From: Oligoflexia bacterium
Lineage (GTDB): Bacteria; Bdellovibrionota; Bdellovibrionia; JABDDW01
Assembly (NCBI GenBank): GCA_034439615.1
Contig: JAWXAT010000041.1
Coordinates: 1 to 62,419, forward strand
Length of the DNA: 62,419 bases
Direction: 5' to 3'
Below, piece after piece: positions 3,980 through 9,790 of this stretch; the first letter of the stretch is position 1; every line of letters starts with the position of its first letter. Below the pieces are notes generated by a model. That model did no database searches, was not told where the DNA came from, and worked only from the letters and a program-made list of their open reading frames with translations. Made by a program: the position numbers and the translations under genes.

Positions 3980-4389
3980 TTTCGCCGCCTCAATTTTAAT
4001 TTTGGTACGATTGTTTCGTAAAACCAGCATTATTCTAATGATACAAATAGTAGAGCAATGCCTGTGCCATGGAATTTGATGTTAGGGTTAACTTACTGGA
4101 ATTTGTGTCACGTAATTCGATGTGAGGATGACTTGCTTGGGGTTTGTGCCTTTTTTCGTTGTAAGTAGTGACTGATTTTTAGACACAGAATTTAACTCAT
4201 AATTTTAGATATTTAGCGCATTATGAGGGGTTCTAGTATTTTCAAAATTCACTATATACCAAATGAGTCTTCTTTTATGTGTTTTTGCCTTTCAATAAAT
4301 CTCTTAAAGAAATAAGGGGTTAGCTAGCTTTTTAGCTCTGGCATTTATTTCGCTCTAAGTGGCAGTAGGAAAGATTGCGGAGAGAAACT
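3980..4389. other. intergenic region between divergent genes
   Basis: About 400 bases separate the lipoprotein and matrixin-like genes. The region is AT-rich and should hold both promoters. I see no RNA gene, terminator or clear -35/-10 pair in it. Confidence 0.4.
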
Positions 4390-4989
4390 TTGAACAAAAT
4401 CAATTGGATATTACTAGCAAGTCTTATAATCTTTGAGATTCAGTGTGCCAAAGGGCCATCTCCTCAGGCTGGTTGTGGTTTTGTGCTTAATAATGAAGCG
4501 CAAAGAGTAAGCTGGAAAAAACAAACTCCAATTAAAATGTATTTTGATGCAAGTGTTCCAACTCAATTTCACGACGGTATTAAAGCTTCTTTTGCAACTT
4601 GGGAAAAAGCCATTGGCCAACAGATTTTTGATTTTGCAGGTTCGCTCCCTTCTTCAGTTCCGACTCAAGATCGTAAGAGTGTAATTTATTGGGAACAAAC
4701 ATGGGAAACTCAGAACAACACTCAGCAGGCTAATACCACAATTTTTTGGGTCGATAATCAGATCACAGAAGCGGACATTCGCGTTAACGCGCAGAATTTT
4801 GCCTTCTCGACAAATCCTGGTAACAACGATGTCGATATTGAATCACTTTTTCTTCATGAGCTTGGCCATGTATTGGGCCTAGCTCATAGTGGTTCTGAGC
4901 AGTCAGTCATGGCCCTCTATCTTTCAAGCGGTACGAAGCGTCGTGATCTTACTCCAGAAGACATATCTAGCGTTAAATGTGAGTACTGA
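4390..4989 (+). CDS. secreted matrixin-like zinc metalloprotease
   Basis: A short exported metalloprotease related to the M10/matrixin group. The zinc motif HELGHVLGLAH (HExxHxxGxxH) lies about 45 residues before the C-terminus, and a Met residue follows in QSVMALYLSS as the expected Met-turn. The N-terminus is a hydrophobic export signal ending near IQCAKG, an atypical lipobox, so it may be a lipoprotein. The TTG at 4390 is chosen because GGAGAG sits five bases upstream; an alternative TTG lies at 4375. There is no propeptide or extra domain. It may degrade host or envelope protein, but the substrate is unknown. Confidence 0.82.
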   Translation: MNKINWILLASLIIFEIQCAKGPSPQAGCGFVLNNEAQRVSWKKQTPIKMYFDASVPTQFHDGIKASFATWEKAIGQQIFDFAGSLPSSVPTQDRKSVIYWEQTWETQNNTQQANTTIFWVDNQITEADIRVNAQNFAFSTNPGNNDVDIESLFLHELGHVLGLAHSGSEQSVMALYLSSGTKRRDLTPEDISSVKCEY

Positions 4990-5581: not shown

Positions 5582-7117
5582 TTAAGTTACTTTTGGAATG
5601 ACAACAGTCAAAACACCATTGTCATATGTTTTGCTGATGTCGTCGATTTTTACCTTTTTGGGAATATCAAATCGCTCTTGAAATGTTTGAACGTTATGGG
5701 TGCTAACGGTTTTACCCTCTTCATTAATTTGGTCATTGAAAGTGCGATTTCCACTTAATGTGACTCGATCATTTTTTACTCGTACGTCAATATTGTTTTT
5801 TTCATGTTCAGGAACTTTTGCCTTTAAAACATAGGCGCCAGAAGTTTCATAAAAATTAGTTTTGTTATCACGGATTTGATAAAATGGGTCGGCTTCTTTG
5901 CCGGCGTACTTATCAGAGGCTTTTAAGAATTGCTTCTTTTGATTGATGAGTTCACGACCCAAGGTGAGACCTTGATTAGTAAATGCGTCCCGCGCAGATT
6001 TTTCATTTTTTTCAAACTTATCTGTAAAATTAACGTGTTGGGAGTCTAAATGATTTTTGTGATGGGTTTGAAGATCTGCAAATTCCTTTTGCTGCCTGTT
6101 GATTTGATTGGTTCGCTGGGTGTCTTGTCTTAGTTTAAGCTCCTCAGTATCTTTTTTAAATTCAAGTTTTTCAGTTTTTAAGTTTTGTTTATGAGTATTT
6201 TTTTGCTCCACAAACTTCATTTTAGAATCAGTCTCAAGTTTTTGAAGTTGTTTTTCGTGTTTTTGCTGTTGAGTTTCTTCTGTTGTTAGGTATCTCTGTC
6301 TTGATTTTTGTAATTGAGTGCTGTCAGATTTGATTTGATCATCAATGCGGATTTTTGCTGTTGTTCTTTGGTCATTGATTTGTTTTGTGGTCTTTTGACG
6401 AAGCTGTTCTTGTTCTGTAATATTATATTCGCGTGTTTGATTAAGAGTTTTTGAATGATTGTCTTTCTCTTTTACGATTGTTTGTTGGAAATTCTTAGAT
6501 TCATCTTTAAATTTTTGCGCATGATTTTCTCTGACTTCTTGAAAGCGTTTTGATTCTCGGTTATCAACAGCAGTTAGTCTTTTTTGATAGTTTTCTTTGA
6601 GTTCATTGATTTGTTGGTTGCCTTTTTCATGAACACTATCTGACTTGCCTGCGACTTTTTTCTGAGCTTCTTCTAGGCGTTTGTTGCTTGTTTCATTAAT
6701 TGCTTCTAACTGAGCTGAAGTCCGAATACTGAGGTGTTCTTTTTGTGTTTTTACTTGATCGTTTTGTGCTTTTGCCCAATCTGCATAATGCTGTTTTGTT
6801 TGTTCGATATGAGCACTTTGAGATTCTTGCTTTTTATTAAGGTTTTCAAGTTTTTGATTTGTCTGAGTATCAAGAGCTTGTTGACGCTCACTTGCTTCTT
6901 GTTCAGCAGCAGCTGTCTTATGTTTTACTTTTGTTTGGATGTGATTAACTACTGCTTGACCGGATTTCTCTTCTTCATGAATCTTTTTGTCATAGCGTTC
7001 ACGGACATCCGTAAGCTCTTCTTGATATTTATCTTTGAGCTCTTCTTTTTGCTTTTCAAACCGATCGCGCATTTGTGTTAAGTCACGATTGGCGTCTGTT
7101 CGCGTAATGTCTGCCAT
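5582..7117 (-). CDS. long coiled-coil protein with C-terminal Hsp20/alpha-crystallin domain
   Basis: Residues 1 to about 400 are extremely rich in Glu, Lys, Gln, Asn and Thr and look like one uninterrupted coiled coil. Residues about 423-511 form a small-heat-shock-type domain: YETSGAYVLKAKVPEH at its start, a dimerisation-type strand region, and YDNGVLTVVIPK at the end, matching the A-x-x-x-n-GVL hallmark. No signal peptide is present, so it should be cytoplasmic. The start has a strong GGAGGAG site. Ordinary Hsp20 proteins have a short N-terminal arm; this one is about 420 residues. The ACD may act as a chaperone cap or a dimerisation module on a filament, but that is inference. Not recognised as a named protein. 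Confidence 0.82.
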   Translation of the reverse strand: MADITRTDANRDLTQMRDRFEKQKEELKDKYQEELTDVRERYDKKIHEEEKSGQAVVNHIQTKVKHKTAAAEQEASERQQALDTQTNQKLENLNKKQESQSAHIEQTKQHYADWAKAQNDQVKTQKEHLSIRTSAQLEAINETSNKRLEEAQKKVAGKSDSVHEKGNQQINELKENYQKRLTAVDNRESKRFQEVRENHAQKFKDESKNFQQTIVKEKDNHSKTLNQTREYNITEQEQLRQKTTKQINDQRTTAKIRIDDQIKSDSTQLQKSRQRYLTTEETQQQKHEKQLQKLETDSKMKFVEQKNTHKQNLKTEKLEFKKDTEELKLRQDTQRTNQINRQQKEFADLQTHHKNHLDSQHVNFTDKFEKNEKSARDAFTNQGLTLGRELINQKKQFLKASDKYAGKEADPFYQIRDNKTNFYETSGAYVLKAKVPEHEKNNIDVRVKNDRVTLSGNRTFNDQINEEGKTVSTHNVQTFQERFDIPKKVKIDDISKTYDNGVLTVVIPKVT

Positions 7118-7171
7118 TTATCTCCTCCATGAGATAAATTAGTATGAATTTAGTGTAACATGTTTTGCGAA

Positions 7172-7537
7172 TTACTGTTGAGCGGGAGCTCTCTGCACTG
7201 GAGAACTTAGACCTTGGGCCTGTTGTATTTGAGGTCCGGGTTTTTGATTTGGCAAATCTAGTGGTTGAATCACGGGTTTGGCACAATACTTAGCAAAATC
7301 ATTCGTGCGGCCACGGCACATCCAATGCTCAATGAGGCGTGTTTGTTGAGTTGGTGTGATCTTGTAGTAAGTTTCATATTGAAGGTGATCCAGTGAGGTT
7401 ATTACTTCATTTTCATTCTTCTGATTAACATCGTATTTAATACCTAGGCGATAGACGCGATACTCTGCATGGCTTGTATGATTACAAGTTAAAATGAACA
7501 GAGATATGATTATAAAATGATTTGCCCAAGTATTCAT
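7172..7537 (-). CDS. small secreted protein, unknown function
   Basis: A 121-residue protein beginning with a signal peptide (hydrophobic FIIISLFILTC, cleavage probably after SHA). The mature part starts EYRVYRLGIKYD and contains two Cys (WMCRG, KYCAKP) that could form a disulfide in the periplasm. The C-terminal third is rich in Pro and Gln and is probably disordered. No domain is recognised. It lies just upstream of the coiled-coil gene on the same strand. Confidence 0.7.
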   Translation of the reverse strand: MNTWANHFIIISLFILTCNHTSHAEYRVYRLGIKYDVNQKNENEVITSLDHLQYETYYKITPTQQTRLIEHWMCRGRTNDFAKYCAKPVIQPLDLPNQKPGPQIQQAQGLSSPVQRAPAQQ

Positions 7538-8944: not shown

Positions 8945-9790
8945 TTGGTTCGTCGCTTAATTTTTGAAACGTGTTCAAATTGCGGGAAGAAAATTACTGA
9001 CGACGAACTAGCCATTCTCGTTGATGAACACAATGACCTTATTTTTTGTTCTGAGAAATGTATTCATGAAAACTTTGAAGAAGAAATTGAAGCGTTAGAA
9101 GATCAGTACATTGCGGCGCGTACACCTGATGATATCAAGTTTCCAGAGTTTAGAAAATATGAACACTTTCTGAAGATTTTACTCAATGAGCCAGACGAGG
9201 TCTGGGAGGTTGATACCAGTGAAGATGAACCTCCAATGTGTTTTCTCATCGGTGAATTTCTTCATGAAAAAGATCGTGTTTTTTATGTGGCTGCTGTTTA
9301 CTATGATTTCAATAAGCCGGTTTTTGTCTACATGCATTTTCCAACGCGAGATGAAAAACTAATCGAAAAATATCGTAGAGATAATCTTGTTTTTGATGCA
9401 ACAGAAAATGATGATTTGGATATTCTAGATGATGTTATCACTGAGGAGAATATTGCTTTTCAACTTTATGAAGAAATGCTTTTGCATCGGTCATCGACTG
9501 ATATAGACACGGAAGATTTTAGTCAGTTTAATGATTTAAAACTATCTACTGTTGAAAAACCCTCAGAAGTCTGGCGACTTGTTGACGATGAAGGTGTAAC
9601 GTTTTTGATCTATATGGCGAGTTATCAAAAGGATAATGAAAATGTAACCTATATCGTCGTTGCCATTGAAGATGAATTAACCCAAGCTACGTTTCCGATA
9701 TTTGGGTTTCCGACGGTTGATCTAAAGCTTGTCGATAGATTTCGTAAAGGCGAAATGTTTGTCTTAAAATCTAGTGGGAGTGAATTTTAA
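8945..9790 (+). CDS. zinc-finger protein with two copies of a PxEVW domain
   Basis: The N-terminus carries a treble-clef-like zinc site: C10 and C13 (CSNC) with C35 and C39 (FCSEKC). After a helical linker, two related domains of about 70 residues follow, at 81-150 (NEPDEVWEV to YRRDNLVF) and 204-274 (EKPSEVWRL to FRKGEMFV). Both share P-x-EVW, a FLI strand, a long beta segment and a D-xKLx-xx-R helix, so they look like an internal duplication. The protein is very acidic and cytoplasmic. The TTG start is forced because a TAA lies immediately upstream in frame. Function unknown; the domain layout suggests nucleic-acid or protein binding. Confidence 0.7.
   Translation: MVRRLIFETCSNCGKKITDDELAILVDEHNDLIFCSEKCIHENFEEEIEALEDQYIAARTPDDIKFPEFRKYEHFLKILLNEPDEVWEVDTSEDEPPMCFLIGEFLHEKDRVFYVAAVYYDFNKPVFVYMHFPTRDEKLIEKYRRDNLVFDATENDDLDILDDVITEENIAFQLYEEMLLHRSSTDIDTEDFSQFNDLKLSTVEKPSEVWRLVDDEGVTFLIYMASYQKDNENVTYIVVAIEDELTQATFPIFGFPTVDLKLVDRFRKGEMFVLKSSGSEF

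Follow-up and report, generated by a model that had tools for sequence, protein, structure and literature searches.

The reverse strand of the window, by which we mean the whole 62,419-nucleotide stretch of contig JAWXAT010000041.1 from an Oligoflexia bacterium of the phylum Bdellovibrionota, encodes a protein in which a rod of about 400 residues, built on an 11-residue repeat, precedes a predicted α-crystallin domain (ACD) of the small heat-shock protein (sHsp) type. The protein and its homologues are characterized by this domain order, the 11/3 periodicity of the rod, an exact or in-phase rod length in most of the homologues that can be measured, and a shared set of neighboring genes (Table 1). 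We tentatively favor a reading in which the product is a cytoplasmic, multimeric, nearly straight rod that presents ACDs and would serve as a scaffold or tether, rather than as a cage-forming sHsp.

Table 1. Features in and around the rod-Hsp20 gene. Loci carrying each neighbor within the fetched stretches are counted first for 41 loci of the window's own class (single-sequence search; a few of these neighbors lie kilobases off or on the opposite strand) and then for 20 further loci, of which one belongs to f9, three to f11, and sixteen to other families (some contigs are short).
Feature	Position	Strand	Basis or loci
Rod-Hsp20 gene, 511 aa	5582..7117	(-)	ORF and Pfam
N-terminal module with AAVNHI-type motif, residues 1-65	6923..7117	(-)	Alignment A1
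Helical hendecad rod, residues 1-403	5909..7117	(-)	Fourier analysis, per-11 columns, AlphaFold2
DPFY hinge, residues 410-413	5879..5890	(-)	Alignment A1
Predicted ACD, residues 421-510	5588..5857	(-)	Pfam, PDB sequence match, AlphaFold2, fold comparison
Hairpin of 9 bp, arms 7131-7139 and 7116-7124, loop 7125-7130	7116..7139	(-)	
Convergent neighbor, 119 aa	5215..5574	(+)	9/41 and 15/20 loci
Upstream neighbor, 121 aa, apparent signal peptide (by eye)	7172..7537	(-)	36/41 and 5/20 loci
Upstream neighbor, 105 aa	7614..7931	(-)	36/41 and 11/20 loci
Divergent neighbor with two PBECR2 stretches	8945..9790	(+)	37/41 and 18/20 loci

A first-pass annotation of this DNA had described a complete ACD with a GVL motif at the end of a long coiled-coil protein. 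The open reading frame of 511 codons upholds the gene itself, and the domain assignment stands on several lines of comparison. Pfam places HSP20 (PF00011) over residues 424–510 (47.3 bits, where the cut-off is 20.8; E = 2.3e-12), and a plant sHsp, 5ds2_A, is both the top PDB sequence match of the protein (E = 5.9e-10) and a Foldseek match (E = 3.7e-6). The VIA fold list for the predicted ACD is headed by sHsps (Hsp16.0, Hsp26, and HspA; Z 10–11.4), with CS domains at Z 9.3–9.9, including nuclear movement protein 2o30 at Z 9.5. The GVL motif is present within the segment NGVLTVVIPK, and the ACD block at residues 424–511 was predicted with mean pLDDT 76–95 when the C-terminal 138 residues were folded separately. 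Among eight homologues scanned with Pfam, HSP20 scored above its cut-off in three, below it in two, and was unreported in three, so that the ACD appears to have diverged far in part of the family.

Small heat-shock proteins typically have a short, variable N-terminal arm and a C-terminal extension with an IxI/V motif, and their ACDs usually dimerize. The window protein has neither of the first two features. Some 410–420 residues stand ahead of its ACD, and its C-terminus reads IPKVT, with a tail of two residues beyond the IPK of the last strand. Across 42 examined sequences, an [IVL]x[IVL] triplet followed the last-strand anchor in 7 of the 38 that could be anchored, but three of these (the window protein, L035, and L064) are artefacts of anchoring on an earlier strand, which leaves a possible IxI-type extension in four homologues (L046, L054, L057, and L072). 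Inspection of the window protein by eye revealed no signal peptide or transmembrane stretch. The annotation's suggestion of an unusual sHsp with a long rod in place of the short arm is borne out, and the arrangement recurs across the phylum.

The nature of the rod required a revision. The annotation had proposed about 420 residues of unbroken coiled coil; some 400 residues are indeed predicted to be helical, but their period is 11/3 rather than that of a heptad, and model confidence is low in the middle of the rod. In the AlphaFold2 monomer (25 homologues aligned; mean pLDDT 74.8, pTM 0.24), helices span residues 6–173 and 188–403 and strands lie between 421 and 509; pLDDT is below 50 across most of residues 158–196, where the model is therefore no proof of helix continuity. 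Hydrophobic Fourier power over residues 1–405 is 29.5 at period 11/3 and 0.14 at 7/2, on which the heptad reading was rejected, and the maximum among 2000 shuffles of the same residues at periods of 3.3–4.0 was 11.7. An unfitted cut into elevens from residue 1 yields 36 repeats, and one column holds I, L, V, M, F, Y, or W in 72% of them. The phase in 55-residue windows ranges from about −57 to +10 degrees up to residue ~400, with an overall drift of at most ~70 degrees. Standard coiled-coil predictors assume heptads and could therefore mislead when applied to a hendecad rod.

The same periodicity is found among homologues. The spectral peak falls at 3.66–3.68 in 37 of 42 sequences, consisting of the window protein and 41 homologous ORFs (two of the rows, L002 and L065, being contigs of the same genome); the five outside this range are a 166-aa fragment at a contig end and four short members of genus g4, which have no clear periodicity. 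All 52 homologous ORFs of at least 350 aa have 11/3 power above 5 and 7/2 power of at most 3.0, and 36 of them reach an 11/3 power of at least 12. All 308 control ORFs of at least 300 aa in the fetched loci, which are mechanical ORFs and in some cases antisense to homologous rods, stay below 12 at both periods; the highest value among them is 11.1, at 11/3. Over 33 proteins, position a is hydrophobic (ILVMFYW) in 69% of cases and Ala in 3%, and positions d and h are hydrophobic in 32% and 36%, in a register that was fitted protein by protein and so favors an a-d-h pattern. Together with the 11/3 periodicity, this pattern marks the rod as a hendecad repeat. One account describes hendecads as only slightly supercoiled, with knobs-to-knobs core contacts that require small side chains, chiefly Ala, or else higher oligomers (PMC9858780). 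Because position a is bulky and rarely Ala, a bundle of at least three helices or antiparallel packing is likelier here than a parallel dimer.

An 11-residue periodicity is also expected of apolipoprotein- or LEA-type amphipathic helices that lie on or protect membranes, and the ACD would then be a passenger. This seems distinctly unlikely. In its favor, Pfam matches the protein to Apolipoprotein at E = 1.1e-5, the PDB search gave weak hits on apolipoprotein A-I (E about 0.003–0.01), and the net charge of the rods is positive in 30 of 33, reaching +30. Against this, Apolipoprotein A1/A4/E (PF01442) attains only 25.6 bits where its cut-off is 90, the hydrophobic residues form a single narrow stripe, as the values at a, d, and h indicate, and the exact conservation of length set out below is unexpected in a surface-lying helix.

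Rod length was measured between two conserved landmarks. In alignment A1 (25 homologues), A55, H59, and I60 of the N-terminal module are conserved at 90% or above, as is the P of the DPFY hinge, while its D, F, and Y are invariant. From N58 of the AAVNHI-type motif to D410 of the hinge, the window protein has 352 residues, or 32 × 11. The length set contained 46 proteins, namely the 42 sequences above and four from f9 and f11 loci, of which 37 were measurable; nine without both motifs were dropped. Exactly 352 residues separate motif and hinge in 15 of the 37, drawn from six families (f1, f3, f5, f6, f9, and f11). A further 11, all from f2, have 257 residues, two have 125, and nine homologues have single lengths of 341, 319, 308, 274, 254, 246, 238, 103, and 73. 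Apart from 352, 11 distinct lengths occur, and nine of them leave a remainder of 0, 4, or 7 modulo 11, the values nearest to preserving 11/3 phase (binomial 2.6e-4, with the set of remainders named post hoc and lengths counted as independent, although 246 and 257 may be related by descent); 254 and 274 are out of helical phase. On the ACD tree, where 13 of 39 inner branches are well supported, the 352-residue label requires at least nine changes and is scattered. We read this length as ancestral in the class. The AAVNHI motif itself was not found in 16 homologues from distant families or in L121, among the 20 further loci examined.

In genome G003, a homologue of 134 aa (L133:3241-3645 (+); family-profile match 9.6e-13) keeps, by eye, the N-terminal module and its AAVNHI motif, with no detectable ACD; other members of its genus have short rods. 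Such cases bear on the possibility that the repeat is a length-tolerant linker, an easily grown spacer between an N-terminal module and an ACD that alone matter. Retention of the module by itself in G003 and motif-to-hinge distances of only 73–125 residues in some lineages are what a linker would allow. Exact recurrence of 352 residues in six families, while most rows of alignment A1 have fallen to 17–26% identity with the window protein, speaks against it, and we consider a mere linker very unlikely.

Proteins related to the window protein, with both rod and ACD, occur in many families of Bdellovibrionota, and at the 61 loci examined they mostly have the same gene neighbors. A whole-protein search matched 55 of 59 relatives at E ≤ 1e-3, the window genome among them, and a C-terminal-profile search of 368 Bdellovibrionota genomes matched 326 at 1e-6; both counts include genomes matched only through an ordinary-length sHsp. 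Stop-to-stop frames of at least 340 aa were found in 129 of 150 among the matches listed for the C-terminal profile. At the sixteen loci of other families, the rods have 11/3 power of 5.1–14.4 and 7/2 power of at most 3.0. Six genomes were searched with two neighbors of the homologue in G015, which we take to be Bdellovibrio bacteriovorus HD100, and four of them, G003 included, were read further; in G004, G027, and G051, small genomes of the window's own class, no rod gene (ORFs of at least 60 aa) was found near the retained neighbors.

The G015 homologue has 427 aa and an HSP20 match below the Pfam cut-off, and it lies at 1.2015–1.2028 Mb, about 26 kb from dnaK at 1.2287 Mb. In the same genome groEL, presumably Bd0099, lies at 91 kb. 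PMC2797640 gives dnaK as Bd1298. The dnaK and groEL positions fit HD100 numbering, and the homologue is therefore estimated to be Bd1265–1272. It is not Ccrp, which we take to be Bd2697, a number that implies a position of ~2.6 Mb, whereas the homologue lies at ~1.20 Mb. Nor is it, at an estimated number of ~1270, the "crescentin like" Bd1167 named in that source (PMC2797640). Deletion of Ccrp left vibrioid cell shape unaffected, according to a separate account (PMC8938487).

Several genes accompany the rod gene (Table 1). The 119-aa convergent neighbor carries a C-terminal motif, LKxNxxxLxDLHSRLxFMLxELExLVK, that recurs next to the rod gene, and neither it nor the 105-aa neighbor of the window has a match above Pfam cut-offs. 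For the G015 copy of the 105-aa protein, a VP30 match (21.3 bits against a cut-off of 21; E = 0.0003) was taken as chance. The PBECR2 protein has a CxxC-bearing N-terminus, no zinc family scores above its cut-off for it, and its PBECR2 stretches are nuclease-like. A matrixin-like metallopeptidase is also encoded at 4375-4989 (+) (PF00413, E = 1.4e-12), and by eye it is apparently secreted; counted as in Table 1, a matrixin lies close to the rod gene at 33 of 41 own-class loci and at 3 of 20 further loci.

Hairpins placed at the Shine-Dalgarno site are known from some heat-shock RNA thermometers. Upstream of the rod gene, a perfect 9-bp stem encloses the Shine-Dalgarno site; the arms are identical in genome G001, and in G002 they differ in sequence but still pair. 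Within the window's own family, all three genes have such a hairpin, with stems of 8–10 pairs. Among 26 homologues with a Shine-Dalgarno-like site, stems of at least 7 pairs occur in 6, compared with 23 of 194 control ORFs, and at 6 pairs the figures are 8 of 26 and 44 of 194. We rejected a family-wide RNA thermometer, since enrichment over controls is weak at most and the hairpin is missing in most other homologues; the hairpin is a lead rather than a result. In several homologues (e.g., L033:8794 and L057:7889), a −10-like TGATAxxxT box is located ~10–15 nt ahead of the ATG, and by eye there is no clear Shine-Dalgarno site, which suggests leaderless mRNA.

A thermometer-like hairpin in three of three own-family genes would suit a holdase, in which the rod merely multimerizes and spaces ACDs that capture unfolded clients under stress. 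In prefoldin, coiled-coil arms serve as multimerizing spacers of this kind. The ACD fold is predicted to be intact, and two genomes, that of the window (96% complete) and G001 (95% complete), have no HSP20 match besides the rod protein. Set against these points, the other five of six genomes scanned, G002, G015, G037, G016, and G007, also encode ordinary-length HSP20 proteins that score better, the ACD of the apparent HD100 copy falls under the Pfam cut-off (E = 0.0084), the window protein has no IxI extension, and many homologues are by eye seemingly leaderless, contrary to a general thermometer. We regard a holdase role as doubtful.

The missing IxI tail, taken with the usual dimerization of ACDs, favors a scaffold or tether over cage assembly. 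The annotation's suggestion of a filament or tether, perhaps cytoskeletal, is retained in part, as the anatomy fits it: there is no visible signal or transmembrane segment, the rod is held at 352 residues in 15 of 37 measurable homologues, and the C-terminal extension is minimal. In the scaffold or tether that we favor, about 36 hendecads would replace the short sHsp arm and form a nearly straight helix of ~60 nm (398 residues × 0.15 nm), and rods would pack laterally along the L/I-rich stripe at position a. Pairing of C-terminal ACDs could then link rods at their ends, or else let the tip of a rod hold clients, while the AAVNHI-type N-terminal module may nucleate assembly or dock a partner; the end product, a scaffold or tether, would have a defined length. 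A broader proposal, which we think unlikely, makes this an ancestral Bdellovibrionota scaffold in which the ACD joins subunits, the straight rod sets their length, the N-terminal module nucleates, and the convergent small protein is a partner. Each subunit of such a filament would in effect bring its own sHsp as a fused domain, and in one class exactly 32 repeats would separate NHI motif and hinge.

Comparison with known systems places both parts in familiar classes. Short arms and assembly into cage-like structures are the familiar traits of small heat-shock proteins. The window protein shares with sHsps of PF00011, such as plant class I and bacterial HspA proteins, the predicted ACD fold, the nGVL motif, and an SGxR strand motif; it differs in its ~400-residue hendecad rod, in having essentially no C-terminal IxI extension, and in an ACD that has diverged in part of the rod family. 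NudC and other CS-domain proteins combine a coiled coil with a CS domain, and their ACD/CS-type β-sandwich is shared, but the window domain is HSP20 by sequence and its rod is far longer. Crescentin-type intermediate filament-like proteins have a heptad-repeat rod. Crescentin and Bdellovibrio Ccrp have in common with the window protein a long predicted-helical rod and a possible scaffold role, whereas the window rod is hendecad and bears an ACD. FilP and Scy, as described in PMC9858780, are likewise long rods in which 11-residue repeats run over considerable lengths; in contrast to them, the rod core here is not Ala-rich (3% at position a) and an ACD stands at the C-terminus. For DivIVA, no Pfam match was reported for the window protein at E ≤ 1. 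What appears to be new is the union of the two parts, its spread through the phylum, and its stepwise length; the titles and abstract openings found in searches of open-access literature name no such bacterial architecture, and a prior mention is possible.

A widespread lineage whose sHsp arm has become a long rod, conserved in length and in phase, would show a different use of the ACD. The apparent HD100 copy would offer a direct test of the role of an ACD in a bacterial scaffold, in an established predatory model strain.
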